From: Beroe ovata
Taxonomy: Eukaryota; Ctenophora; Nuda; Beroida; Beroidae
Length of the DNA: 64,000 nucleotides
Direction: 5' to 3'
Assembly (NCBI GenBank): GCA_946803715.1
Contig: CAMPET010000080.1
Location: 59,693 to 123,692 of the forward strand
Shown here: positions 17 to 37,508 of the stretch, piece after piece
Numbering within the stretch: the stretch's first letter is position 1
Layout: each line of letters opens with the position of its first letter
Program-made: the position numbers and the translations under genes
Notes under the pieces: generated by a model
Told to the model about the DNA's origin: nothing
Database searches by the model: none
What the model saw: only the letters and a program-made list of their open reading frames with translations

Positions 17-77
<61 letters not shown>

Positions 78-1893: not shown

Positions 1894-4800
1894 TTAACAG
1901 ATATCATTTCCATGTCGCTGTATAACGCTCCCCTGACATTTAGACTTACAACAGTACGGTTCATAACATGGAGACCGTTGGTAAGAACACCCGAATGGGG
2001 CCTTCTCAAAACAATACTCGCCCTCTAAAAGTGGTTAGAGATTGTCAAATGTTGCTATGGATGTAAATGGTTGCTAGGAACTGCCAAGAGGTGTCTGGGT
2101 GACAATGTTGAGTACTTTACCTATACTAGTCGGGTGCAATCTCAATTTCCCCGTGTTAACAGTTGCTATTACAAAGAGTTGCTCTAATTGTTGCTATGAG
2201 CAACTGGTTGCTAACTCACCACACTGTGGAATAGCACAGGAATCGACCTGTCCACCGCCCCCGCAGCTAGCATCAGTGATACACCACGGACCCTCATCAG
2301 ACATGTCCGGGTTCCGACAATAGTTGGAGTCCAGGTCCGCGTATGGGTATACCTGGGGAATGGGGGGATGAGGGGTCATGAGAGGATGAGGGGGTTGAGG
2401 AAAAAGTTCAGGAGGGGTCGGAAAAATCCCTGTTGATTTTCATGAGGGATTGAAGCTTCTTACTTCAAAGTTCAAAGAGATTACAGGTTTCAAGCAATCA
2501 GCTCATTTCTGTCATAATGTGTTTCTATGACGTCACCTCGCACAACTGATGACATCACTAACTGATGACATCACTAACTGATGACATCACTAACTGATGA
2601 CATCACTAACTGATGACATCACTAACTGATGACATCACTAACTGATGACGTCACTAACTGATGACGTCACTAACCTCGGGGTAGAAGTGATGTTGCGTAG
2701 TTGTGTGATCATTCCACGGCAAGCATTCACACCCTGACACACTGACACTCCGTGTTCCTTGGTAGTTTAGCCAAGTTCCGTGACTCTTCTTATGTCGACA
2801 CTCGATCGCTGTTCGGAGAAAAGTCTTTTCATGATCATTCAAATATTCCCTCATTTCGTACAGACAGATTGGACAGGCNCACATACCTGGAGCTCTATTA
2901 TCCTCAGGCAGAGGGTCAGGTAGGCAGTACTTGTTAGAATACTCCGGACTGTCGCTTCTCACCATCCAGTTTGTGACTGCCTTGCAGAACACCCCGTCCG
3001 CAGGTCTTGTCGACTTACACAATGTTTGGAAACAGTAGCCCGATCCTAAGTCGTAAAATACTCTGAAATGGTGGTTCTGTCAGTTGAAAAACAGTGATAT
3101 TTCCTTGTTCCTTACTTACAAAACAAAGAACTGACTAGATAGGATAAGAAGCAGAACTAAAATATGATCGAGTTCAGTAGCAGACTGAGTTTGGGTGAGT
3201 TTAGTAGACAGTATCAGACCGAGTTTATAATTGTAGACCATACTCACTTCTTGGTGTCGACAGCGTCTCCAGCTAGTCTGAATAGCGTGTTCACGGCGGC
3301 TGGTTCGGTCACAGCGTCTATACCCAGGAAACAGATACCTTGCGTCTTCTGGATATTGTCCGTGTACGCGCCCTGTGATGTAACGAGGTATCATGATATG
3401 ATCACTATAGTCACGGTATATCTCCTGTTTTTATGATCACTGGTGACGTTATGAGTCATAACTGATGACTGATGACTTCATGGTATCTTCTTGATGAGTG
3501 ATGACGACTCGTTAATATCTTACCTTGATGACAAATCACTAATCAGTTATACCTTGATGCCCCAGCCTCGTCCCTCGTACACAATGCCCGTCTTAGCGAT
3601 GTAGAAGTTACACAGGACATCCTTTTCCTGATGATCATCCCATGCTTCCTTTTTCAGCTGCCGTAACTTTGCTCTGTGCGAGTCAAGACATGAGGTCGCC
3701 AATCGATCGAATTTGATCCATAAAAGTCGATCGATAATCGATATTGGCGGGAAATTGGGTATAAGAATACAATGAAACTACATGAGTCTATCGAAATGCA
3801 AGGAAATATTTTGTACCTGCAGTCTGAATCATCAACACAGTAGGCACTATCAGCAGCATCAATGAAGAATGTGGCAATAGGGAAGCCTCCCTCTATGAAC
3901 TCTCTCTCCTCCACTACTTCATCCCAGACCTTCTTCGGAACGATGATCAGACCTCTGCTCGGATCTGAGAATAAATTAGATAATAGGTTTAATTAATTGG
4001 ATGAACGAACCGAATAGATTAGATAGTCATTTGAAGTGTACTGTGTTTCGGTCCCTCTATAGTTGGAGCCTTTGGTCTCTGTGATAGAAAGGAATGGAGT
4101 AGGAATCCTTGAGGAAAAACCTACCTACACACGAGGGGAAGTTAACGGATAGATCGCTCCACGATCCGCTGATCTCACACGATCGTTTACTCTCGCCGAT
4201 CAGCTGATACCCTCCGGCACAAGAGTACGTGGCGATGGATCCGACATCGTACGTGTCGTACGTGACTTGTCCGTTGGATGGATCGGGTAATTCGCCACAC
4301 CCGCACGGTCGGTAGGTGTAGAGAGGGGTAACACCAGCTGAGAGGGAGAGGCAGTTAAACACAAGGAAATATTTCGTGAAAATGAGTGGGATAATCACGG
4401 TGATCTCCTACATCTTTTCTCTCGAAAAGAATCCCTCGCTCACGCAGAGTATTTCCCCTTCCCCTCACGCAGTATCCTCCCAGTCACGCAGTATTTCCAT
4501 TCTCCCCAGCTACTCACGCAGTATTTCCCACGAATCCAGATCAGAGTAGGTAGACCCTCCCGGACACGGTGGACCCTGAACCAGGAGACCCTCTTCGCGG
4601 AGTCCCGAGTCACAGGTAAACATCATACAAAACTCAGAGCTGATTTTACCCGTCTGGTAACCCTATAGAAAAGAGAGGAGATGTTTATAGTTTCGAGAAC
4701 TTTCGGAAAAATCTAGATCATATAACAAAACACATTCGAGACTTTTTCTTTAAATCTAGTTTTGATTCAGTAGTCTCCAATCCTTGAGTTCCATAGGCGG

Positions 4801-5557
4801 ATATCCGACCAGGAAAATCCCACTTGATAAATACGCCCAAGTCGGGTTTTTTTGAGGTAATTTAATAACTCACCATCCTAATCAGTTCTTTGATAGCAGT
4901 TTCCGCTCCCGCAGTAATGCCGTTGCTAAAATCAGCCAGATAGGCGATTCCGAGCGAAGAAGGCGCATACCGTTCCGATATACTGCTTTGTTTATCCCAG
5001 CCTCGTCCCTCAAACACGTCCCCGTTATGACTAACGTAGAAGTTGAACTGAAGATCAGGGTATCCTGAGTCGATGTCACGCTGTTGTAGTGATCGCATCC
5101 ACCCGCCGCATGATTCGACTGTTGAACAGTCGGACGCTCCTGCGATAGCTAGGGGGTCAGGGGTTAGGTCACTTTTTTCAGGAGTTAGCCTACATTTTTG
5201 AGGGGTTAGGTCATTTGGTCAGCACTGGGTTCGGAGCGAGGGTAGGATATATCATGAGGGGCAAGGGGAAAAAAGAGTGGATTTATCATGGAAATGAAAG
5301 AGAAATGGTGAGTGATTCTGATGTCAGGGGCAGAAGGAATGGAAGAAGAAAAGCGGGAGAAAAGGGGAGTTCAATAAGGTTTCTTCAGATCACTCATTTC
5401 TCCACTTACCATCATTTCCAATGACAATATCCTTGATATTGACCAGTGCAGGCCCACTGGCACTGGTGGGGTTAGCTTCCCAACTGTATCTCTCCACTAT
5501 ATCCAGGGATAGGGCGGCCAGTGGTAGTAGAAGGATGGATAGGAGGAGATGTTTCAT
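1894..5557 (-). CDS. Secreted PGRP-like/CCP/PGRP-like/kringle protein
   Basis: Eleven exons, 579 aa: 5410-5557, 4874-5139, 4518-4662, 4125-4337, 3817-3964, 3553-3673, 3248-3372, 2887-3062, 2675-2808, 2220-2352, 1894-2024. All phases match. The protein starts with a signal peptide (MKHLLLSILLLPLAALS). PGRP-like domain A (about 20-190) shows IVERYSWEA, NFYVSHNGDVFEGRGW, LGIAYLADF and CPGG...SW. A CCP/sushi domain follows (about 200-256, four Cys). PGRP-like domain B (about 258-435) shows IIVPKKVW, NFYIAKTGIVYEGRGW and GICFLGID. The kringle (about 449-535) shows GTWLNYQGTRSVSVSGCECLPW, NYCRNPD, PWC and CAIPQC. A Cys-rich tail ends the protein. The HHT zinc-ligand motif is IGN in domain A and FID in domain B, and the second His is also missing, so neither domain should be an amidase. 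By PGRP family knowledge that means binding or recognition, outside the cell. The last exon (Cys-rich, stop at 1894-1896) is the least certain; a GTAAGT inside it at 1950-1945 could be a donor. N at 2879 falls in intron 8. Confidence 0.82.
2220..2808 (-). other. Kringle domain exons 9 and 10
   Basis: The kringle is split by a phase-0 intron (2353-2674). Exon 9 supplies the first two Cys plus NYQG; exon 10 supplies NYCRNPD, PWC and the final Cys. All six kringle cysteines can be counted. This is the most clear-cut domain call in the gene. Kringles usually bind lysine-type ligands or other proteins in secreted molecules. Confidence 0.88.
2547..2674. repeat. 16-bp tandem repeat, about 8 units, in the kringle intron
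   Basis: Unit TGATGACATCACTAAC repeats about eight times; the last two units read TGACGTCA (a CRE palindrome) instead of TGACATCA. On the minus strand every unit starts GTTAGTGA, and the exon-9 splice donor is the first of these, so the repeat appears to have grown from the donor itself. Confidence 0.9.
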
Positions 5558-20170: not shown

Positions 20171-23100
20171 TTACAGGATCTGGATACGATGATTCCATGT
20201 ATCCACGACAACCAGACGTCCCTCCTGGTTCAGCTCAACGCAACATGGACCGTCAAACTCGCCGTACTTCTTGCCGCGTTTACCGTACTTTCCGTGATAA
20301 CTGGAAGTAGTTTCCAGGTATTAAGATATATCTCTGAAAAGGGGCAAAAGAAGATATTCATTGATTGAGAGAAATTCGCGTGCCAGTCAACCAGAGCTTT
20401 GCATGCATCAAGCTCATTTCGATTCAGCCTGCTAGGCGTGTTCTAAGTGTAGCTTTTACCGCACAACCTATTATCATAGAAATTGATAGTAAATCATAAG
20501 ATTCAAATGTAAAATAAACACTCACTGGCCACGCTCATCGAAGATAGAGATCCTACAGTTGCCCCACTCTGACACAATGATTCCACCCTGAGCATCGACA
20601 GTGATGTCACTAGGTCCGAGGAGCTCTCCCTTGCCCTTTCCTTCTTTTCCGAACTGTCCAATGTAGCCGCCATCAAAACCGAACACCTGAAATTGGGAAG
20701 CGTTCGATCAACTTCTTGTTCGATCAACTTCTTGTTCAAACAATCCATGCGCTTTTTGCAAGCAATCGCGGAAAACACAAGTCACAAAAAAGCGACCAAG
20801 CTATCATGTTCACCTTGATTTTAAATTTTTATTACCTTGATGCAGGCAGGTTTCATCTGAGAAACGTAGATGAGTCCGTGAGAGTCTGAGGTAATACCGA
20901 CTGGCTGGTGAAGTTGACCCTCTGGGGCGTTGTCAGAGCCTCCGATAACCCTCAGGAAGTTGCCCTAGGGGAGAGCGAAGAATTCAAAATTCATCCCCGA
21001 TCAAAAGAAATGTATTTACAAGAAAAGGGTTCATTGAGTTCGACAAAATCGAGAGATTATCCACAAATTCCCTCACTCTAACTTACCCGTGAGTCGAAGA
21101 CTTGGACCCTGTTGTTATCAGAATCGGTGATGATCAGATAGTTATCCCTAGTACAACATATCTTCCTGGGGTTCATGAACTCTCCCTCACTCTTGCCCTC
21201 TCTGCCAAGTGTCCTCACAAACTTGCCCTGAGTAGTAAACACGGAGATCCTGTTGTTGCCGGAATCCACGACGTATACAAATCCTGGAGGAGGGGAAGAC
21301 GAGTTGAGAAGAAAAAACATTCGATATTACGAGGGGTGATTTGAGAAAAGTAGAGAGGAAAATCCATATCAAGTTCGAAATATCAAACGATTCACATTCT
21401 AGGTATCTGCTATGACAAATGTCACTAATAACGAATCATGGCACCATAATGGGAACAATAGTCAATGGGGTCTAGTATTCTTACCTTGGCTATCGACGCA
21501 GGTGTCAGTAGGGTTATCCAGTTCTCCCTTTCCGGACCCCTTCTTTCCAGCTCCAATGATATGAGAGAACTTGCCTGTCTTCTTAAGACACTGAACCCTG
21601 TTGTTCTCTGGAAAAGAATAAGAGAGATTGGTCGGCTGCCAAACATGATGTTTCTTACTTTCCAGTTCAAACTACAATCGACAACTACAAAGTCGCCATT
21701 TCTTTATTTATGTCTGAGCAATATCTTAGCAATAGAAGTAATAACTTCGCGTCAAATGTAAGTTATCTTTAACTAACCGGTATCAGCGACGTACATGTTG
21801 CCAGACTTATCGAAACTGATACCCATGGGTTTCTTGAACTCAGCAACACCAGTACCAGATTTGCAGTTGGGAGCGCCAATAGCTCGGACCCCTATCGGAG
21901 ATAAAAGTTTTTTAATTCGACTCAAGTCCACATTCTCTATCCTAAGAGGCACTGAGAATCAATCTTAAACTTGGCGGGTAAAAAAACACCTCCAAACTGC
22001 TGAAAATAGGTTCTATACCCTACCTTTTCCGACGTAGTAGTCGGTGACAGTATCGGCAAGGTCAGCTTGGTTAGCATGGTCCTCATCCCCGTCAATAGCG
22101 GATCTCAGAGTAGAGAACTCTCCTGTGTGATTGGCTGGTGAGAAGTTGGGAACCACGCGTGTGATTGGTCACTCGAAATCGAGATCTCTATTTTGATTGG
22201 CAGATGTAAACTCCAGTAACGCGTGTGATTGGTCAGTCTGTGTTGAATCTCGATCCTGATTGGTTGATAGAAAGTTCTCCATACCTGGGCTGATAGGTCG
22301 ACCATGGCTGGTGGCTTGCTTGCTCCCCCCAGTTCCATTGGCAGTCCTCTCCCGCATCTCTTTGATTGGTTGAGCGTTGTAAGTCTCCACAACAAACTTG
22401 CCGAGCCCATCAATAAACGTGGTGATGATCGTCTCGTTCACCTTGGAGAGAGAAGGGGAGTGAGAAGTCAAACTTCATTTTTCTTGAGGATCTTTTCAAT
22501 CAAAAATCGTGGAGATGTCAAGATGGGGGTTCCTGTTTCATGAAAAGATTGAAATATGCCTTCCAAAACAAAACTCTGCTCTTTATATGAGCAGCAAGCG
22601 TCTCCAAGACGCACAAAACTAAACCTTTTGGAATTCGATGTTCTTCCTCTTTACACCGATATCAAGATCAACATTCTTCAGCTCCTCCATTCGCTCGTAG
22701 ATCTGAGGAAAAACTTGTCAACTCCAGAATTGGTCAACTCCAGAATATGCATCCCAAGAATTGGTCAACTCCAGAATATGCATCCCAAGAATTGGTGAGT
22801 TAAAGGGAGGATGAAGACAGAATGAGGCGCGATTTCGGCTTGTTCTCATACTGCGTGATCCAAATACTTGCGCTGCTGATTTCGGCGCAACATTTTTCGA
22901 AAATCTGCTCTCTAACCTGTCCCTCCATTCCGAGGATGTCAACATCAGAGCCATCATTGAGGAGGTTGGCGACAAAGTCACAACCAGCCTGTGTACTCTG
23001 CATAGCCACAGACAGTTCCTCCCTCTTAGCCTCTAGTTGGGATACACTGGCCTGCTTCATCTGCTCAACTGAGGGGAGGAGAGAATGGTGAGGGATGTAG

Positions 23101-25046
23101 TGAGAGGTGAGGTGACAACTTGGGGAAAATCAGAGAGAGGTGAGGGGATTACCGATGATGGTGAAAATCCTGTCATCCAAAGCATTGGAATGCGAAATTC
23201 TGGGTAATTACCTGTGTTGAGAAGATGCTGTTCTCTGGCCTTGATAGCTTTCTGCACACGTTCCATCATGGTCTTAATCTCATTCTGTGCTTTCTTTGCC
23301 TGCTCCTTCATTTCATGTTCCTCGTCCTTGAGGATTGTGATGCTCTGATTGAGCGGCTTGAGCTTAGATTGGACGGCATCCAGGGCTTGTTTCACGTTGT
23401 CCCTATGTGATCCGATGATCTCAGAGATGGGCTTCACCTTCATGTTCTTGTACTCTCCTGAGAAATGAGCATGTCAGAAACCAGATATCAGTCGGTATCT
23501 TAGGATCGAATGTGCAGACGCCAGGCGATCATTCCATTTCCCAAAATAATCAATAATCCTGAGAACTATCCTGGAATCTGGATGTTTTGAAAATGAATTC
23601 AACTGACTTACCGAGAGTACAGTCTCGGCAGATGGACTCGCTCGTGGTCTCACAGTAGAGTCGGAGTGCCTCCTCAGGATGTTTGGGACACATCTGAATC
23701 CTGTGATTCGCCTGGGGGAGGGCCAAGTGGGTCAGCTATGCAGGCCGAGAGGACATGATATCGTACCATTCTTTGTGTGTCGTGTTCACGACACCCAAAT
23801 AATGGCCGAATTGATTTGATTCCTTTAATCATTGACGCATGTCAGAATCCTATGATCTAAGGAAAATCTAGGGACCATCAAGTACCTGGAGGGACCTATC
23901 CTTGATGAGCTCGTCGAAGTTGAAGATATGATGGTCTTTGGTGTACTTGAGCGAGCTGTAGATTGACTTACAGTCCTTACAATACGCTTCCTCAGCCTCA
24001 ACACACCAGAACTCAGCACCTGCAGATTTGGAAAATATTAAGTTGTGTTTGATAGTCATTGACGGTGCTCAGCTACGTTCGCAACAGCTCTGAGCAACCA
24101 TCATTTGCAACAAAAAAGGTCCTTATCTCGATAAAATTCCATTTGGGTTAGGAATAAGTGCGGTATCATTTCATCTCGATTTTATAAAATCGAGATTTTA
24201 TAAGACCCCAAAAACTCACCACAGTTGCCACACCCATCGCACGTCTTGGTCTCTTTCTCCTTGTTCAGGTTGAGGATCTTGATGAGGTTCTCAATAACTC
24301 GGTGTTTGGTGAAGTTCTTCACGTCACCGTTGATAAGAGCAACTTCCTTTCGGCAGATTGGGCAACTGAAGTGAGAAGAGAAATGAATTTTGCTGAATAT
24401 CTTGGAGGATGTATCATGAAAACTACCACGATATTCAAAAAAATTGGTCACAAAAACCAGAAGAATATTGAAAGTCTACTCACACAACATAGGAGTTGTG
24501 TCCGGCAGCCTGCGCAAGACACGCCTCACAGTAGGTGTGAAGACAGGGCAGGACCCGCGGGGAAGTGAAGTGGTCCCGGCAGATGGGGCATTCCAACTCA
24601 TTCCACATACGTGCAGCTACCTTCTCATCTGTCACCCTGGGGGAGGAGGAGGGGGTTAGAGCGAGGGGGAGGTACTGGTCATGGGTCAGGGGTGGAGATT
24701 GCATCAGTGGGGTGAGGGTAATCCTCTCTTGTTTCAATTCTCAAACTTTGCTAATTGTCGAAAATTTGAATAGAAATTTTATCAGTAAGCGTGTTATTCC
24801 TGCGATTGATGAAATGGCAATATTTGTATTCAAATACAATCCTTATGAGCAATCGACACAACAACTTCCCAATCCAAACACAAGGAAATATATTTCTTAC
24901 TTCTTTTGGACGACCTCCTCCTTGCCGTCCTCGGTGTGGTGGATGATGTTCTGTGCCTTCACTGCGCTGGGCGGGGGCGATGCTTGACTTGTCCTGATCT
25001 CTTTGCCGTCCTCGTTGAATTCCTTCCGTTTGATAACCTCAGCCAT
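20171..25046 (-). CDS. TRIM-NHL protein (RING E3 ubiquitin ligase type)
   Basis: Sixteen exons, 754 aa: 24901-25046, 24484-24636, 24220-24365, 23886-24019, 23612-23711, 23212-23457, 22917-23068, 22625-22702, 22285-22441, 22024-22122, 21778-21891, 21485-21607, 21087-21283, 20836-20964, 20526-20686, 20171-20300. All phases agree. The RING (about 65-106) shows CPIC, CLHTYCEACL and CPIC. B-box-type fingers follow: CDGCGNC...WC...YCKDC (about 143-175) and CPKH...YC...CRDC (about 197-226). A coiled coil spans about 230-360. Six NHL repeats (about 471-754) each end in a V.D..N.R-type strand, the last being VVVDTWNHRIQIL at the C terminus. By family, the RING transfers ubiquitin and the NHL propeller binds RNA or protein in the cytoplasm. 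The sixth NHL repeat lies in a separate last exon; ignoring its donor at 20525-20520 would give a false stop (TGA 20522-20524). The ATG at 25046 is in ACCATGG context. No filamin repeat is evident. Confidence 0.88.
22123..22284 (-). promoter_or_regulatory. Intron 9 with a phased GATTGG (CCAAT) array
   Basis: The 162-base intron carries five GATTGG motifs whose ATTGG starts at 22130, 22164, 22196, 22228 and 22259, spaced 34, 32, 32 and 31 bases apart. CGCGTGTGATTGGTCA occurs twice, so the array is a dimer of about 64 bp repeated twice. It may simply be a minisatellite. The spacing of about three helical turns would also suit repeated NF-Y-type sites on one DNA face. Confidence 0.5.
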
Positions 25047-25407
25047 GGTAACACGTACAACTGGAGCAACTAGAGAGAAAGAGAGGGGTTGAACAAGATC
25101 TGAGTCTCACGTGGGGGGATGTGACCAAAAAAAGGAATCAGGTATAAATTCTCAACCAAGTTCAAATTTGTTAGCGAAATAATTTTTCTCTCCTCAATTA
25201 TCATACAACAGAAAAGTGGAACGAGCAAAGCCCCACTGNCGCTTCGCGGCCAGGCTGGGTGGAAAAAATTGCAATCGTGGAGATGTCAAGATGGAGGTTC
25301 CTGTTTCATGAAAAAGATTGAAATATGCTTTCTAAAACAAAACTCTGCTCTTCATATGAGATTTTCATGATTATCAGCAAGCGTCTCCAAGACGCACTAA
25401 ACTAAAC

Positions 25408-27879
25408 CTTTTGGAATTCGATGTTCTTCCTCTTTACACCGATATCAAGATCAACATTCTTCAGCTCCTCCATTCGCTCGTAGATCTGAGGATATAATTG
25501 GTCAACTCCAGAATATGCATCTCAATAATTGGTCAACTCCAGAATATACATCCCAAGAATTGGTGAGTTTCAGAGAGGATGAAGACAGAATGAGGCGCGA
25601 TCTCCGTCTGTTCCTTAGTTGATTGTTGCGTGATTCAAGTACTTGGGCTGCTGATTCCGGCCTAAAAATGTTCGAAATACTGTTTTCTCTAACCTGTCCC
25701 TCCATTCCGAGGATGTCAACATCAGATCCATCATTGAGGAGGTTGGCGACAAAGTCACAACCGGCCTGTGTACTCTGCATAGCCACAGACAGTTCCTCCC
25801 TCTTAGCCTCGAGTTGGGATACACTGGCCTGCTTCATCTGCTCAACTAAGGGGAGGAGAGAATGGTGAGGGAAGTAGTGAGATGTGAGGTGGGAATTTGG
25901 GGACAATGAGAGAGAGGTGAGGGGATTACCGATGATGGTGCAAATCCTGTCATCCAAAACATTAGAATGCGAAATTCTGGGTAATTACCTGTGTTGAGAA
26001 GATGCTGTTCTCTGGCCTTGATAGCTTTCTGCACACGTTCCATCATGGTCTTAATCTCATTCTGTGCTTTCTTTGCCTGCTCCTTCATTTCATGTTCCTC
26101 GTCCTTGAGGATTGTGATGCTCTGATTGAGCGGCTTGAGCTTAGATTGGACGGCATCCAGAGCTTGTTTTACGTTGTCTCTGTGTGATCCGATGATCTCA
26201 GAGATGGGCTTCACCTTCATGTTCTTGTACTCTCCTGAGAGATTAGCATGTCAGAAATCAGTCAATATCTCAAGATCGGGTGAACAGACACCAGACACCA
26301 GGCGGTGACACTAATATAACATAACATTTCTCAATGTTATTTTGAGAATCATCATGGACGTTCATTAAGTGTAAAGTTAAGCTCCACAGCACACTTACCG
26401 AGAGTACAGTCTCGGCAGATGGACTCGCTCGTAGTCTCACAGTAGAGTCGGAGTGCCTCCTCAGGATGTTTGGGACACATCTGAATCCTGTGATTCGCCT
26501 GGAACAGGGCCAAGTGGGTCAGTTACGCAGGCCGAGGGCTGAGAAGGCATGATATCCCACGGCTAACCACGCCCCAAGAATTGAGTGAGTTTCTCGAGCA
26601 TAGTACACTGAGTGTTGGCGACACCCAAAGAATGGCCAAATCGATTCGATCCCTTCAATCATTGACGCATGTCAGAATCCTATGACCTAAGGAAAATGTA
26701 GGAATCATCAAGTACCTGGAGGGACCTATCTTTGATGAGCTCGTCGAAGTTGAAGATATGATGGTCCTTGGTGTACTTGAGCGAGCTGTATATTGATTTA
26801 CAGTCCTTACAGTACGCTTCCTCAGCCTCAACACACCAGAACTCAGCACCTGCAGATTGGGAAAATATTAACTTGTGTTTGAATAGTCATTGACGGTGCT
26901 CAGCTACGTTTGCAACAGCTCTGAGCAGCGATCATGTGCAACAAAAAGGTCCTTATCTCGATAAAATTCCATTCGGGTTAGGAAAAAGTGCGGTATCGTT
27001 TCATCTCGATCTTAAATAACTCAAAAACTTACCACAGTTGCCACACCCATCGCACGTCTTGGTCTCCTTTTCCTTGTTCAGGTTGAGGATCTTGATGAGG
27101 TTCTCAATAACTCGGTGTTTGGTGAAGTTCTTCACGTCACCGTTGATAAGAGCAACTTCCTTTCGGCAGATTGGGCAACTGGGGAGGGGTGAGAAGAGAA
27201 ATGAGAAATAGTCAGAAAAGGAGAAATGAATTTTGCTGAATTTCTTGGAGGATGTATCATGAAAACTACCACGATATTCAAAAAAATTGGTCACAAAAAC
27301 CAGCAAAATACTGCAAGTCTACTCACACAACATAGGAGTTGTGTCCGGCAGCCTGCGCAAGACAAGCCTCACAGTAGGTGTGAAGACAGGGCAGGACTCG
27401 CGGGGAAGTAAAGTGGTCCCGGCAGATGGGGCATTCCAACTCATTCCACATACGTGCAGCTACCTTCTCATCTGTGACCCTGGGGGAGGAGGAGGGGGTT
27501 AGGGTTATGGGGTGGTCATGGGTCAGGGGTGGAGATTGCGCTAGAGGGGTGAGGGCAATCCTCTCTTGTTTAAATTTTCGACCTAAGCCAATTGTCGAAA
27601 ATTTGAATAGAAACTTCATCAGTAAGCGTGGTATCCTGCGATTGAAATGGCAATATTTGTATTCAAATACAATCCTTATGAGCAATCGACAAAACAACTG
27701 TCCAATCCAAACACAAGGAAACATATTTCTTACTTCTTTTGGACGACCTCCTCCTTGCCGTCCTCGGTGTGGTGGATGATGTTCTGTGCCTTCACTGCAC
27801 TGGGTGGGGGCGATGCTTGACTTGTCCTGATCTCTTTACCGTCCTCGTTGAATTCCTTCCGTTTGATAACCTCGGCCAT
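25408..27879 (-). CDS. Second copy of TRIM exons 1-8 (RING, B-boxes, coiled coil); probable allelic duplicate
   Basis: Exons: 27734-27879, 27327-27479, 27033-27178, 26716-26849, 26399-26498, 25989-26234, 25694-25845, 25408-25485. Every exon has the same length as its partner in the full gene, and the protein differs little or not at all, while introns differ by indels (for instance the extra 'gggga...gaaatagtcag' stretch near 27181-27215). No NHL exons follow. The copy stops near 25250, close to the single N at 25239, and the other copy stops at exactly the same N in sequence matching 28146-28178. Two alleles joined end to end explain this best. If real, it would encode a TRIM without its NHL propeller. 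Confidence 0.8.
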
Positions 27880-29570: not shown

Positions 29571-32500
29571 TCAGTGTGCTCCCCTTGTCTCATCCAAATG
29601 TAAAATTCTGATAATTGATCCAGGATCGTTTACTTTCCAGTTGTAAGCTTTGACTATGAGATCCAGAATGACTGTCAACTTTTCCTTGACTGTCGTGAGT
29701 GATGGTCTGTCGTGTGATCTGGAGTACAGGGAAAAGTAACAAAAAATTAAGAGGGCCCCATCGCTTATCAAATTGATAGATAGAAATTACTCTCGATCAG
29801 CGAAAAGTTTTACCAATGAATAAGTTTGGAAAATAGGAGTTTCGACGGAAACCACAGACAGGAATAAGTTTGGAAAATATCATTTAAACCGAGAAGTTTC
29901 GACGGAAACCACAGACAGATATAAACCACAAAGATGAATTCATATCATACCTTTGTCGTATACAAAGCTTGATTAGATTTCGGACTGCTATTGGAACGTG
30001 CGGTTGGAATGAAACAATAGGAACGCCGTTGTTATACTTGATCTCCTGTTAGTAAGAAAAATAAAACACAATCGTCGACAGTTTTAATTTCAGCATCTAC
30101 CGACCGTTTTTCGTTACTCCTACTCCAAAAGTTTCCCTACTTTTTGCGAAAACTCGAGTGTCATGATACTTCAAAATATCCCCTATTTTTGCCCAGTGTC
30201 ATGCTACTCTAACTCAAACACTCACCAGCAAGTCTTTGTAGCTGAACTGCGAGTAGTGTATCGCCTCGAGGAGTGTGATACCCAGACTCCAAGTTAGACT
30301 GGTCTTGCTGTCAGTGGGAAACCACCTGATCTTATCCACGTCCTGTTCGGAACATCAGAGAGAGAGATGAGAGAAGATTCATCGCCAAAATGCATCAATA
30401 AATTGAGCAAAGACTATACCAGGGCCGTAGTATGAAATTTCAATATCAATTCATCCAATCAGTGAAAATACAATTTCCACAGAAATTTCTATACTGGTTC
30501 CCTAGCAAAGGCAACACTCTCATATCTACCTGATCACTCAGTAATCGTGTGGTTGAATAGAGAGATAGTTTAGCGCACAGAGCGGAGTTTAGGAGAATAT
30601 TGCGACAGGATAGTGCCCGTAGCGGCAACTTCACATCCTCGATATACAGCAATGCACTGCATATGTCACGAATCCAGAATAGAACGTTGAGGGGTGATGT
30701 GTCTCTGAAACAGGGTTTGGGAGAATGGACAAAACAGAGGGTTTGGGAGAATAATGTGGTGCAATGAGCAAAGCGGAGGGTTTGGGAGAGGGAACAGAAT
30801 AGGTGGGGGCTAGGTTCAGGAACCAGGAAAAGGCCCTTTCTCCCGGCAAAAGGGGGTTCTTAGGGGATCTTAATATGAATGAATGACTTACTTTTTCCCG
30901 TTTTCCGCCAGGTAGATGTCTAAAGTGCCTATTTCGCACAGCTCTGTCACGATCAATTGCTGCTTTTCGAAGCCTGGAAAAGGGGGATTGAAGAACAGCA
31001 CCTCGAGACCATGACATTGCCAAATTTTACACTTTGTTTTGTCATTCGGTCAGATTTGTTATAAATACAGCGCATGAGATCATCAAAATGTGACACCTAT
31101 CAGGTAGCCATAATCAATTACAAAACTCGAGCCGCGCATCGATATTGTTAGGAAACACGTGATGATAGATGTTGAAAACAAACAATTTCATGGACAATTG
31201 TTTGCGCGCGTTCCACACTCTAAACTACTATTTTGCGTCCGCCCGAAATTATGATTGATGAAACGGAAATTAGCCCAAGTTGTGGCGTGTATTTGATACA
31301 TGCTGAAATTTGACACTCGAATAAGTTCATAGTACACCAAGTCCTGAGAACTTTGTTCATGACATAAACAAGGAAGTGCAGTAGGAGTGTCAGACTTTCG
31401 ATGAATTGTTAATAATGAATAACAGCGGATTTCCCAATCAATGGAAATCTGATGATCGAAAGATTCTGATACACCCCCACTAAACAAACTGTTACCGCCC
31501 AACAAACTGTTACCACCCAACAAACTGTTGTCAGAACAAACTGTTACCACTCACCAATCAAACGAACTATGTTATCATGTTCTAGGACAAATGGTTCATG
31601 TTTCCACTTGCTGCTTCCCTTAGCAACCCTTTTTATAGCAACAGGGACGTAATGGAGTGTTCCTTTGTAAACTTTACTACACGCTCCATTTCCTGAAATA
31701 TAGCACCAGATTGATCACATTTCTGAGAAAATATCCAATTGTCCCCCAGCAGCTTTAATGAAAAGGAAATTGATTGTGTTTCGAAGAAAGTTCTAAAATT
31801 AGTCACTAGGTATCACACTATATATGGTATTGCAGACAAAATGTAGAACTTGAGTACTGCTAGTCAATGATTGTGAAATATCGATGATATATGTCGGTCA
31901 CAGGTTTTCTTACTCAAGACAAGATTTTGTGGGAACGAATGCGTCAGGCGTACAGGTGATCAAAGATCAAGGAACTTTAGAGCAGGCATAATGAACTCAT
32001 TTCTGGTTCCTCAGGCGATGTTCAATACAACAACAAATAACAAATGAACTTACCGACAACTTCACTGCAGAGGATACTGTTCTGATCGAGGGATAGACGG
32101 TTTGAAGAGGATTTCAGACTCTCAATTTCGCTCTGTCGCAGGAAATTTTTCTTATTCTTCTTCCTCTCGCCAGCATTCCTGTAAAACAGTGCAAAGTATT
32201 CTATCAAGCACACGAAAGGAGAAGTTATGATATGTCGGGCTCGCAAAAATATTTACCTGCGTTTGAGTTTGGTCTGAACCTGGTGATTTCCTCCGTCTAC
32301 CTCATCAGATGAGGAACTCTTCCTAGCAGCTGCCTGAGGAATGAGCTACGTCACAAACTGGTGTCAGAGGTATGTCATAAACTGGTGTCAGAGGTATGTC
32401 ATAAACTGGCGTCAGCGCAATTCACAAACTGTTAGAAATTTTTTCGTCTTGGGCGTGGCTTCACGGCAAGAATGAATCCAGTAAGGTCATTAAAAGAGTG

Positions 32501-35005
32501 GCTACTCGTAGTATGAGAGTATGAGAGATGATTTGGTGAACAATTGGTGTCCTAAGTGCCCGTTAAGACTCCGTTACAAGCCTACAAAAATGACGTACAG
32601 GAGTGTGGAGTCATTCACTTCATTTTCTATCGATACTGTTGTCAGAAATTCGAAGAAAATTTTTGTTGCATTTTCATGCAAATACCATCGATTCCCATGC
32701 ATTTTTGGACGCTGAATCGATTCCCGATCGAATTTCAGCCCTATCTTGCTTCCCTGAGGAGCTGTATATCATGTGACTCAGAACCTCATGACCGAGAAGA
32801 AATTTGAATTTTCCCCAATTTCCCAATCAGCTAGCTCTCTAATTCTTTCAGATTCGAATTCTACGTCAAAAAATAGGCCAGAAACACTTTTTTTCAGTAT
32901 GTCACGTGCAAATATGTTTTTGGCCTATTTGTGTGTCCCATTGATTTTCGTGTTTTTGTAGTGAATGCTTCCCAGGGGAGAGAAATCGTCATTTGGGCGT
33001 GGTTTCACGGCAAGTATGAACTGAGCATGATCGTCAAAAGAGTCGATACTTGTAGTGTGATAGTAGGAGAGATGATTTGGTGGAAAATTAGTGTCGTAAG
33101 CGCCGGTTAAGACTTCATTAGGGACCTTCAAAAATGACGTATAAAAGTGTGGAGTCATTCACTTCATTTTCTATCGATACTGTTGTCAGAAATTCGAAGA
33201 AAAATTTTTGTTGCATTTTCATGCAAATACCATCGATTCCCATGTATTTTTGGACGCTGAATCGATTCCCGATCGAATTTCGGCCCTATCTTGCTTCCCT
33301 GAGGAGCTGTATATCATGTGACTCAGAACCTCATGACCGAGAAGAAATTAGAATTTTCCCCAATTTCCCAATCAGCTAGCTCTCTAATTCTTTCAGATTC
33401 GAATTCTACGTCAAAAAATAGGCCAGAAACACTATTTTTCAGTATGTCACGTGCAAAAATGTTTTTGGCCTATTTGTGTGTCCCATTGATTTTCGTGTTT
33501 TTGTAGTGAATGCTTCCCAGGGGAGAGAAATCGTCATTTGGGCGTGGTTTCACGGCAAGTATGAACTGAGCATGATCGTCAAAAGAGTCGATACTTGTAG
33601 TGTGATAGTAGGAGAGATGATTTGGTGGAAAATTAGTGTCGTAAGCGCCGGTTAAGACTTCATTAGGGACCTTCAAAAATGACGTATAAAAGTGTGGAGT
33701 CATTCACTCCATTTTCTATCGATACTGTTGTCAGCAATTCGAAGAAAAATTTTTGTTGCATTTTCATGCAAATACCATCGATTCCCATGTATTTTTGGAC
33801 GCTGAATCGATTCCCGATCGAATTTCGGCCCTATCTTGCTTCCCTGAGGAGCTGTATATCATGTGACTCAGAACCTCATGACCGAGAAGAAATTAGAATT
33901 TTCCCCAATTTCCCAATCAGCTAGCTCTCTAATTCTTTCAGATTTGAATTCTACGTCAAAAATAGGCCAGAAACACTATTTTTCAGTATGTCACGTGCAA
34001 ATATGCTTTTGGCCTATTTGTGTGTCCCATTGATTTTCGTGTTTTTGTAGTGAATGCTTCCCATGGGAGAGAAATCGTTACTTGGGCGTGGTTTCACGGC
34101 AAATATGAACAGAGCATGATCGTCAAAAGAGTCGATACTTGTAGTGTGATAGTAGGAGAGATGATTTGGTGAAAAATTAGTGTCGTAAACGGTCATCATC
34201 GATTATACTTTCCTACTTATACTGAGATCCGAAATTCTATGGTGAATTTTTGCTCAATTTTAATGCTAATGCCCTGAATTCCTATATAATTCTGCATGCA
34301 GAATGCATGCAGAATTGATTCCCGGTGAAATATTGCCTCTATCTCGCTTCTCTGAGGCGGTGTCTGCCGTGTGACTTTGAACCTCATATCTGACATCAGT
34401 AGGTCGCATCGAATTCTTAATAGCATGAGACTATTCCCCACCTGCATTTTGAGGAGTTTCCTCTGGGATTTCTCGAGGGATTTACGTTTTATGTTGTTAC
34501 TCCCCCGTCTCGATAGGGTGTTGTGCAGATCAAGAGTGATGTTTTCATCTTCTGAGAAGAGAGGGGGAGTGAACGTGTGATTAGGAATTCAACTTCTGTG
34601 TCAACAGAGTGGTCTATACGGATCACCACATGGTTCCTTGTTTAACACGCCGTACAGCACCAGGCTAATTTGATGTGGATAACAACTCCACGTTAATGTT
34701 CAAAACACTGTGAATTGACTACATTAGAACGCAACATGATTATATAAGCTTGACAGCTACGTGGTATCAACTATTCAAACTGTAATATTAATGCAATGTA
34801 CACTATTGAGTTGGTTTATGATGAAGTACCAATCATCAACAATACATTATATGTACTGTTCAGTCAGGAACGATGATAATTAGATGTATTATATTGTATA
34901 ATGTATAGTGCATACCATACATTGTATAGTACACGCTGTAACTGTCACCTTTCACAATGATATGTTCTACAATTAGTATGTCAGACATATCGGGAATATG
35001 ATGTT

Positions 35006-35091
<86 letters not shown>

Positions 35092-37508
35092 AACACACAA
35101 ACAAACACGTGCGAGATGAATACAGGCATATCATAAGATTTTAAGAGTAATGCGAGAAATAACGGTATTAAGCAAAGAAAAGCGATAACACGTGAAACCA
35201 TTTTGGCTGAAACATAACAACCACATATGCAGGAAATAGCCGTCAGGAAAGTGTTCAAAACAAAAGTGTTTTGACGCACTGGGAAAAACTTTCATAATAT
35301 CAAAACAAACCCATGTATCAGTGACCGGTTCACATTTCAAAATAAAATTCGCCAAAAATAGCGCTATATGAGTGTTCCATGATACAATGGTACTCACATG
35401 GTACAATGGTACTCACAACTTTCCGCGCAAGGTCATTAAACGGCAAAGCAATTTGGTAACATAATGTGAAGGCTCATGAGGCTCTGAGATCCTCATTACA
35501 TATTTGACACTAATGAAGTAACACTATACCTTGCCCCTTACTAATGCGCTACATTATCTAATGTGTTAAATGTGCTTCTTATAACGGGTATATTGGTGCA
35601 TTAGTGCAATAATGTAGTATGGGGTGTATAGCGTGTATTTTGGGATGTATATTACACAATGCATGATGCACTATATTTTATGAACTCTGTCAGAAATGAG
35701 AGAAAGACAGCTTTAAATCACACTGCGATATGACTCAGAAAAGTAACCCTTTGTGGGAGCCATAAACTTCATAACATGACGGGTATTTCATCCAGTTGAA
35801 ATGGTGAATTCTTAAGGTGATTGGTGAATAATCCTATGGTGAATTTAGTTTAGTTGCACAGGAAATTCAAACTAACTTGATTTGTTGTTCGAGGGAGCAG
35901 TATCTTCATCGTCACTGAAAGTCATGTTGAAATATCCGACTGCATTTCCCTCACTCGGGTAACTATCGTTATCCGACAGAGACAGATTCGAACTGCGAGT
36001 ATTGGAAATTGGAGTGTTACATTTGAGAATTATTGATTGAGGAGTGAGGACCTTGCTCTTAGGATTTTCCCTTAAGATGAATAAACAGATGGGTCGTGAA
36101 AGGCTGGAACTTACAGGTTTGCAAGATTGAGACTCGAGGATTTCCGCTTGGTTTTCATTGCGACTTTTCTCTTGGCTGGACGAGCTGAGTCTATTGATCC
36201 ATCTGAGACCTGAAATTCGTGATTACTGTTAACATTCTAACCTGTTTTTTATGTTCATAAACAATTGTTTTGATTTATTGAAGCTTATCCCACAAAAACA
36301 GAAAATCATACCAAAACTATCAATTGCGAAACACAAAGGACACCTGGTACCTCAACATCACTTTGTCTGAAGTTGTCAGGGATCAGCTCTGGTGGGTGTG
36401 AGAGGTGACCTCTTTGTAACCACGTGGAAACACAGCATGGCTTCCGGAGACCAACACCTGCATCAGAAGAGAGTATCAGGGTGTTCATTTCATAGATTTG
36501 AAGGCCAAAGATTCAAATTTCTTTGTTAGCTCATGCTACAGATCTTAACTCACCCAGGGATTTATCAGTTTTATAAAACTTGATAAGATCAAGCAGGTTA
36601 TCGAATCTGTTCTGAATTGTGATCCCAATTTTGTTGTCCATTTCAATCACATCAAATTGCCTGACCTGCATAAAGTATGAAGTGCTGATAGCATGCCAGA
36701 TGACAGGAAGAAATTGTTTTGCTTCATAATTTTGTCAACAGGAAAGTTTTAATGTTTATTCACCTTATTATTGAGCCAAATTGAAAGAACATAGATGACT
36801 GATTCTTTGATAGAAGTTGTGACAAGAAATGAACCACAAATTGGGTCTGTCACAGCAAGCCTCAAACTAACTTCCTCTTTTGGAATTTTTCCATGGAACC
36901 AACAGAGACCTGTACACTGCAATATATTGAATGTTGAATTTTATATTTGAATTCAATGAATGTACAAATAATTGATATTTATTCACACCATTCCCAATTT
37001 CAACTGACCTGATGTCCAGGAAAGAGAGAGTCATGAACTATAAAGTATCTCACTGGGCAGCCATGAGTCAAAAGAGTCACCATACCATTGGTTTGTTTGC
37101 TGTGCTCTATGACCATACTTTCAAGACTCTCATAAATGTGATTGGAATCCCACACAATGCTTCCATCAATCTGTAGAATTATTTATTTGCCATCAGAAGG
37201 TATGATACCTTGTAGATATTACATACATACTGCAATGCCAATTATTACCTTCATTTACCTGTTTAGTGATAAGATAGTGAGCTATTTTCCTCATGTAGTA
37301 AACACTGATAACATAATTCTCTTCATCCTGATGATGGAAATATGAAGGACAATTTCCATGCATCCTTCATCAGATCAGGAAAAGTAAAAGAATGGTTTCA
37401 TACCTTGGACCTAATAAGGAATGTTCCATCACTACTACTGTAGAGCATCAACCGACACTCAGCAGTTTCTCGATCCACATTGCCATGGAAATATAATTCC
37501 ACCTCCAT
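29571..37508 (-). CDS. Syk/ZAP-70-type tandem-SH2 protein with a degenerate kinase domain
   Basis: Seventeen exons, 661 aa: 37404-37508, 37259-37327, 37009-37170, 36764-36916, 36554-36665, 36351-36457, 36115-36209, 35877-35992, 34442-34551, 32257-32333, 32054-32178, 31555-31692, 30892-30973, 30530-30704, 30226-30342, 29951-30045, 29571-29718. The ATG at 37508 has an in-frame TGA two codons upstream and begins right before the first SH2, as in Syk. N-SH2 (about 6-105): YFHGNV, FLIRSK (Arg33 kept), HYLI. C-SH2 (about 118-205): WFHGKI but FLVTTS, so the phosphotyrosine Arg is Thr145. A long Ser/Lys-rich linker spans about 206-410. Kinase domain: GNGACSKVYKG, VAIK (Lys431), then LRALSCRN in place of HRDLAARN (Asp lost) and LYS in place of DFG; WSLGITLLEA and DRPSLTTV follow. 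It should therefore be a cytoplasmic adaptor/pseudokinase, length close to Syk (about 635 aa). The JAK family was considered and rejected because there are two SH2 domains and no FERM. Confidence 0.88.
32340..32445. repeat. Short tandem repeat with TGGTGTCA motif
   Basis: About three units of GGTGTCAGAGGTATGTCATAAACT, in the intron upstream of exon 10 of the Syk-like gene. The same TGGTGTC/GACACCA core recurs in the repeats near 9.0-9.3 kb and 48.3-48.7 kb. Confidence 0.7.
32451..34200. repeat. 544-bp satellite array, three units plus a partial (array A)
   Basis: Units start with GGGCGTGG at about 32451, 32995, 33540 and 34084, a period of 544-545 bp. The second and third are nearly identical; the first and last are more diverged. 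The array sits in intron 9 of the Syk-like gene. Short frames of 60-83 codons repeat in it on both strands but shift between units, so I do not call genes. A decayed further copy may extend to about 34400. Confidence 0.9.
34560..35870. other. Intron 8 of the Syk-like gene with a CA microsatellite
   Basis: No exon recognised. A long CA tract lies at 35007-35108, followed by AT-rich sequence. A 16-base direct repeat (ACATGGTACAATGGTACTC type) is near 35385-35415. Confidence 0.6.

Follow-up and report, generated by a model that had tools for sequence, protein, structure and literature searches.

Gene structure and predicted product

The stretch analysed here (the window) comprises 64,000 nucleotides of contig CAMPET010000080.1 from the ctenophore Beroe ovata, and includes a 17-exon gene at 37508..29571 on the minus strand that predicts a protein with two SH2 domains and a degenerate tyrosine-kinase-like domain. 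The product is predicted to be a conserved pseudokinase. An initial annotation, made from the sequence alone, had proposed a phase-consistent model of 17 exons with two SH2 domains and one kinase domain, and this is borne out by an independent rebuild, by Pfam and by two full-length relatives. In the rebuild, all 16 introns are GT...AG and the joined exons give 661 codons and a stop, with consistent splice phases throughout. The predicted order is SH2 (N-SH2), SH2 (C-SH2), a long basic and Ser-rich linker (interdomain B) and the kinase-like domain. Pfam detected both SH2 domains and a PK_Tyr_Ser-Thr match (residues 407-627, E 4.9e-23) that spans profile positions 4-258 of 258. The start Met is common to all three orthologues (this protein and the two relatives described below). 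The exons are as follows, with aA2, bB5 and bD4 denoting SH2 positions.

37404..37508, minus strand: exon 1 (residues 1-35), start Met; N-SH2 with R13 (aA2) and FLIR (R33, bB5)
37259..37327, minus strand: exon 2 (36-58), N-SH2 with H52 (bD4)
37009..37170, minus strand: exon 3 (59-112), last part of the N-SH2, then most of the short linker between the SH2 domains (97-117)
36764..36916, minus strand: exon 4 (113-163), C-SH2, with FLVT for FLVR and Lys for the aA2 Arg
36554..36665, minus strand: exon 5 (164-200), C-SH2, with Gln166 for the bD4 His
36351..36457, minus strand: exon 6 (201-236), end of the C-SH2 and start of interdomain B
36115..36209, minus strand: exon 7, interdomain B, basic and Ser-rich
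35877..35992, minus strand: exon 8, interdomain B (GYFNM, SDDED)
34442..34551, minus strand: exon 9, interdomain B (SRRGS, IKRKS)
32257..32333, minus strand: exon 10, interdomain B (SSSSDE, KLKRR)
32054..32178, minus strand: exon 11 (369-410), end of interdomain B and start of the kinase-like domain
31555..31692, minus strand: exon 12 (411-456), partial glycine loop, PVAIK lysine and shortened aC segment
30892..30973, minus strand: exon 13 (457-483), hinge region and aD
30530..30704, minus strand: exon 14 (484-542), LRALSCRN for HRDLAARN and L-Y-S for DFG; 511-525 invariant in all three orthologues
30226..30342, minus strand: exon 15 (543-581), PTD for APE and LTWS for DVWS
29951..30045, minus strand: exon 16 (582-612), C-lobe, with the conserved FQPHVPIAVRNLIK
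29571..29718, minus strand: exon 17 (613-661 and stop), DRP and C-terminal tail

The introns carry repeats. Intron 9 (~32445-34190) contains a ~545-bp unit repeated about three times head to tail, the copies being 92-96% alike. The unit belongs to a dispersed satellite-like repeat family: the genome contains 195 matches to it, many of them arrayed head to tail on dozens of contigs. Simple repeats are found at 35007-35108, 32343-32415 and 31483-31550, and comprise a CA microsatellite and two minisatellites with units of 24 bp and 18 bp.

Kinase-like domain

HRD is replaced by LRA, DFG by L/I-Y/F-S, APE by PTD and DVW by LTW in each of the three orthologues, with LRALSCRN at residues 512-519 of the Beroe protein. 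All three keep the lysine of PVAIK/PVAVK, two of the loop glycines and the RN of the catalytic loop. The motif states given in the initial annotation (LRALSCRN, L-Y-S, PTD and the FLVT of the C-SH2, with the N-SH2 Arg and the VAIK Lys retained) are all confirmed. Its statement that the glycine loop is kept holds for two glycines, and fails for the third, which is Ser in the partial loop GNGACS. In the profile alignment to EphA2, a gap of ~8 residues shortens the aC segment at the place expected for the aC Glu.

A pseudokinase is taken here as a kinase fold that lacks at least one of the VAIK Lys, HRD Asp and DFG Asp; both the HRD Asp and the DFG Asp are missing from all three proteins, and the catalytic residues of the Syk type (HRD, DFG, aC Glu) are not present. 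Judged from the alignments, the catalytic base, the Mg-binding Asp, the aC-Glu region, APE and the aF Asp are all lost. Because the three orthologues share the same motif losses, the gene is predicted to encode a conserved pseudokinase, not a decaying one. Skipping of exon 14, raised in the initial annotation as an event that would undermine the model, does not occur in the two relatives, since both contain the exon 14 residues. A hidden catalytic version of exon 14 was also considered and rejected, as none of four HRD-like and DFG-like patterns occurs in the six unspliced frames of 29571-37508.

AlphaFold models were poor, with mean predicted local distance difference test (pLDDT) scores of 41.0 and 44.3, and no conclusion rests on them. 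The second, equally not relied on, has an SH2 domain and several kinase elements, with no helix between b3 (425-432) and b4 (452-458). Foldseek placed ZAP-70 and SYK first for this model at template modelling (TM) scores of 0.19-0.25, a ranking biased by the SYK/ZAP-70 rows in the input alignment.

SH2 domains and linkers

The phosphotyrosine contacts R13, R33 and H52 of the N-SH2 are intact, and its bB5 Arg motif is kept as FLIR or YLIR across the orthologues. In the C-SH2 all three contacts are replaced in all three proteins, by Lys at aA2, Thr at bB5 (FLVT) and Gln at bD4, so that the bB5 Arg is not found in both SH2 domains, as it would be for a doubly phosphorylated immunoreceptor tyrosine-based activation motif (ITAM). 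The spacer between the SH2 domains is 21 residues, compared with ~63 in SYK, and an interdomain A of ~60 residues is therefore lacking. With its second site disabled and so short a spacer, the protein would be unlikely to bind an ITAM at two sites as Syk does.

Interdomain B is ~187 residues long, basic and Ser-rich (SRRGS, IKRKS, KLKRRNA, KNKK). Twelve tyrosines are invariant in the three orthologues, and none lies in 210-396 or 527-556, which correspond to interdomain B and the activation segment. Regulatory tyrosines in these two regions, as in Syk/ZAP-70, are thus not conserved here.

Orthologues and conservation

Among 7016 large-database candidates, a single-sequence query matched two proteins only at E<=0.001. 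P0001 is full-length (661 aa) and 85% identical, and P0002, annotated as 'tyrosine-protein kinase SYK-like isoform X1' from the ctenophore Bolinopsis microptera, has 660 aa and is 66% identical by BLASTP and 69% identical in the alignment. Pfam found SH2 and PK_Tyr_Ser-Thr in all three proteins, in the order SH2-SH2-kinase. The longest contig for P0001 is 2502 bases, yet it holds a complete frame; because this is too short for an intron-bearing gene of this kind, P0001 is probably a spliced transcript, and the junctions would thereby be confirmed in a relative. The gene model of P0002 is without the C-terminal tail. P0002 also has 14 extra residues within one residue of the exon 14/15 junction (30530/30342), perhaps due to an alternative splice or to a gene-model error. 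When the protein was searched against its own genome, 17 of 18 matches fell within this gene, which is accordingly single-copy at that search sensitivity; the remaining one is a weak kinase match on contig C333 (E 0.0055).

Identity to the Bolinopsis protein is 74/91 in the N-SH2, 19/21 in the inter-SH2 linker, 53/92 in the C-SH2, 114/186 in interdomain B and 166/230 in the kinase-like domain, and the corresponding values for P0001 are 78/91 (N-SH2), 77/92 (C-SH2) and 197/231 (kinase). Over the Bolinopsis distance the apparently intact N-SH2 is better kept than the putatively disabled C-SH2. Four runs are invariant in the three orthologues, at 5-22 and 31-45 (both in the N-SH2), 511-525 (the degenerate catalytic loop) and 594-607. 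The segment PLRALSCRNILLNSA (511-525), which holds the ruined catalytic loop, is unchanged across all three. When the 231 kinase columns, of which 154 are invariant, were shuffled 20000 times, 30 of the shuffles gave an unbroken run over these positions.

Relationship to the Syk family

The initial annotation assigned the protein to the Syk family. That assignment is supported in part: domain order and the N-SH2 point towards it; the kinase-like domain, the C-SH2, the spacer and the regulatory tyrosines do not. SYK and ZAP-70 were the best matches in a full-length ranking against the PDB. Compared with single domains, the N-SH2 scores level with SYK (47.6 bits) and ABL (46.7). In the SH2 tree it groups with the Syk/ZAP-70 SH2 domains with support of 82/95 (not starred), and with the Syk N-SH2 at 73/76. 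Seven groupings were asked of this tree: those joining the N-SH2 to the Syk N-SH2 and to both Syk SH2 domains are in the best tree, and none of the other five is rejected (p 0.217 to 0.417).

The kinase and SH2 trees contain 17 and 21 rows, respectively, without invertebrate Syk, Shark, other ctenophore, sponge or cnidarian sequences. A protein search for invertebrate Syk gave 12 matches, two of them the orthologues already described and the remaining ten other kinases, and in a second such search those named by organism among the best 120 of 3528 matches were all from mammals. The protein appears Syk-like in its architecture, and Syk descent is probable, not certain.

Search for a catalytic Syk

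The 77.8 Mb assembly was searched exon-wise and only part of the matching places were inspected. There were 19 matches to the Pfam SH2 model and 159 to the Pfam kinase model, while a ZAP-70 kinase piece matched 71 places and SYK SH2 pieces matched 6. The second, catalytic Syk that the initial annotation considered worth seeking was not seen, nor was any other catalytic tandem-SH2 kinase, in this exon-wise and partly followed-up search, which could miss one. The SH2 hidden Markov model also missed the intron-split SH2 domains of this gene, and the result is weak evidence of absence.

Eleven loci (10 distinct places) were scored against six kinases, and none is clearly SYK/ZAP-70. C6 (ZAP-70 120, EGFR 117) and C210 (EPHA2 120, ZAP-70 117) are near ties, with no SH2 match within 2.7-3 kb. 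The best PDB family match is Fyn/Src for C173 and FAK for C156; the highest-ranked row for C156 is an EGFR construct, with a score drawn from two copies. By eye, C351 is NCK-like, C60 Tec-like, C87 Abl-like and C44 Src-like, and the rest are receptor-type or other kinases; a tandem-SH2 open reading frame (ORF) at C149 reads like phospholipase C-gamma from its motifs. It is a tentative and rather doubtful proposal that ctenophores have kept the Syk-like branch solely as a dead adaptor for a single phosphotyrosine and have no catalytic Syk alongside. If it is true, the tandem-SH2 module outlived its kinase in a lineage that is maybe sister to other animals.

The C60 region at 131500-141000, minus strand, contains two near-identical copies of the ORF for the Tec-like kinase N-lobe, which arose either by tandem duplication of part of the gene or as an artefact of assembly.

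Other features of the window

4060-5218, minus strand: Sushi domain (Pfam) adjoining an ORF that resembles a peptidoglycan-recognition protein
22108-27835: near-duplicate stretches, in which the minus-strand ORFs at 23060-23473 and 25849-26250 are almost identical
27326-27835: contains a RING domain (Pfam)

The resemblance of the ORF at 4060-5218 to a peptidoglycan-recognition protein lies in a motif; Pfam gave no confirmation, and Amidase_2 has no match in the genome. The genes in 22108-27835 are perhaps TRIM-like.

Proposed function and origin

We consider, with a probability of about 0.6, that the gene encodes a conserved ctenophore adaptor derived from a tandem-SH2 tyrosine kinase, probably a relative of the Syk family. 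The adaptor or competitor for a single phosphotyrosine put forward in the initial annotation stands, in that a one-site phosphotyrosine adaptor or a decoy/competitor is the best reading of sequences in which an apparently dead kinase and one intact SH2 domain are conserved between species. The N-SH2 would dock the protein on one phosphotyrosine, in a receptor tail or a scaffold, and the C-SH2 with the conserved 21-residue linker may be structural or may bind something else. The dead kinase domain could serve as a protein-binding surface, the former catalytic loop being among the most conserved stretches, and the basic, Ser-rich linker may be phosphorylated by Ser/Thr kinases or may direct the protein to the nucleus or a membrane. 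Overall, the protein would act as a scaffold, or as a decoy occupying sites that catalytic SH2 kinases would use.

Several observations weigh against this reading, and those on ancestry would suit a protein not derived from Syk, in which a tandem-SH2 kinase of another lineage (a CSK/ABL/Eph-like kinase with SH2 duplication or shuffling) died in ctenophores and the Syk-like order is convergent. By profile, the kinase-like domain matches EphA2 at 85 bits, ahead of ZAP-70 (60), ABL (57) and CSK (55), and it lies beside EPHA2 in the kinase tree with support of 59/72. The C-SH2 scores higher by profile with RASA1 (50.5 bits over two domains) and with CSK (50.0) than with SYK (33.7), and CSK is also its nearest neighbour by path. 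A pairing of the two SH2 domains as mutual duplicates is not rejected (p 0.217), the inter-SH2 linker is far shorter than in SYK, and the SH2 and kinase trees are without firm support. However, the N-SH2 groups with the Syk/ZAP-70 SH2 domains, the order is SH2-SH2-kinase, and the group containing the C-SH2 beside CSK (94/95, unresolved within) also holds Syk-type SH2 domains. The data reject neither a Syk clade that includes the kinase (approximately unbiased test, p-AU 0.12), nor a pairing of the C-SH2 with the Syk C-SH2 (p 0.243), nor a grouping of all the SH2 domains together with Syk (p 0.331), and the slow-evolving EphA2 may attract a very long branch such as the ctenophore stem (3.95 changes per column). 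The kinase-like domain appears to be too diverged to place, and trees of the kind suggested in the initial annotation neither confirm nor refute the family assignment. A non-Syk ancestry is a real possibility, short of even odds.

Regarding function, the VAIK Lys and two of the three loop glycines are retained, so ATP binding is possible; together with the RN of the catalytic loop, they would be compatible with a kinase domain that has kept nucleotide binding, or some weak activity of an unconventional kind, and works as an ATP-switched pseudokinase. With the HRD Asp, the DFG Asp, the aC-Glu segment and the aF Asp all missing, this is distinctly improbable. It is unlikely, though less so, that the C-SH2 is alive with a non-canonical ligand (an unphosphorylated peptide, a lipid, or phosphotyrosine bound without the bB5 Arg). 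Retention of the domain, its invariant Thr in place of Arg and the conserved inter-SH2 linker would fit such a role, but of the three folded domains it is the one that differs most from Bolinopsis, and all three of its phosphotyrosine contacts are replaced. The folded domains are level in the comparison with P0001, and the contrast between the N-SH2 and the C-SH2 is seen solely against Bolinopsis. Similarly, the length of the run at 511-525 is by itself unremarkable, because runs of at least 15 arose somewhere in the kinase domain in 2705 of 20000 shuffles. Loss of the catalytic motifs could also mark a decaying gene, but the frame is open across 17 exons and two other sequences are full-length with the same motif states, leaving decay next to no probability. 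A pseudogene or mis-spliced model was ruled out as a candidate by these two full-length relatives.

Comparison with known systems

Published views of the age of Syk differ: a passage in PMC8662651 has Syk emerging in vertebrates, whereas one in PMC2820527 reports it in Hydra and sponge. PMC9601881 describes 183 Syk-family sequences from sponges to primates, seven of which represent invertebrates and jawless vertebrates; the term 'ctenophor' was not found in a word search of its text. The expanded name of Shark is given as SH2 domain ankyrin repeat kinase in a portion of PMC2820527, and CCK4 is named among pseudokinases in a portion of PMC8662651. Among the matches listed from the open-licence full-text literature there is no report of a ctenophore Syk or of a Syk pseudokinase, which agrees with the statement in the initial annotation that none was known.

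If confirmed, the protein would be a natural kinase-dead tandem-SH2 protein under selection, with which non-catalytic functions of the Syk type could be tested without engineered mutants. Because ctenophores branch very early, it would also bear on when ITAM/Syk-type signalling arose. The name given to the Bolinopsis protein is silent on its pseudokinase status and would mislead counts of active kinases.

The protein resembles Syk/ZAP-70 in its SH2-SH2-kinase order, its similar length, an N-SH2 nearest to Syk/ZAP SH2 domains and its best full-length structure match. It differs in that the HRD and DFG Asp are absent, the C-SH2 is without its Arg, the spacer is 21 residues instead of ~63, the basic and Ser-rich interdomain B has no conserved Tyr, and the activation segment is short. 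The orthologue P0002 from Bolinopsis shares the same architecture and degenerate motifs over 660 aa. Two SH2 domains also precede the kinase in Shark/HTK16 (SH2-ankyrin-SH2-kinase), but in the ctenophore protein the linker has 21 residues and no ankyrin family is among the Pfam matches at E<=1. JAK JH2, which is an SH2-linked pseudokinase, and PTK7/CCK4 would be comparable in having a tyrosine-kinase-like fold without catalysis; they differ in domain context, and no active kinase domain follows here. Pseudokinases and atypical SH2 domains are already known, and a non-receptor tyrosine kinase turned adaptor is a known kind of protein. What is unusual is a tandem-SH2 kinase in which the kinase and the second SH2 domain are both disabled and have been kept so in ctenophores.

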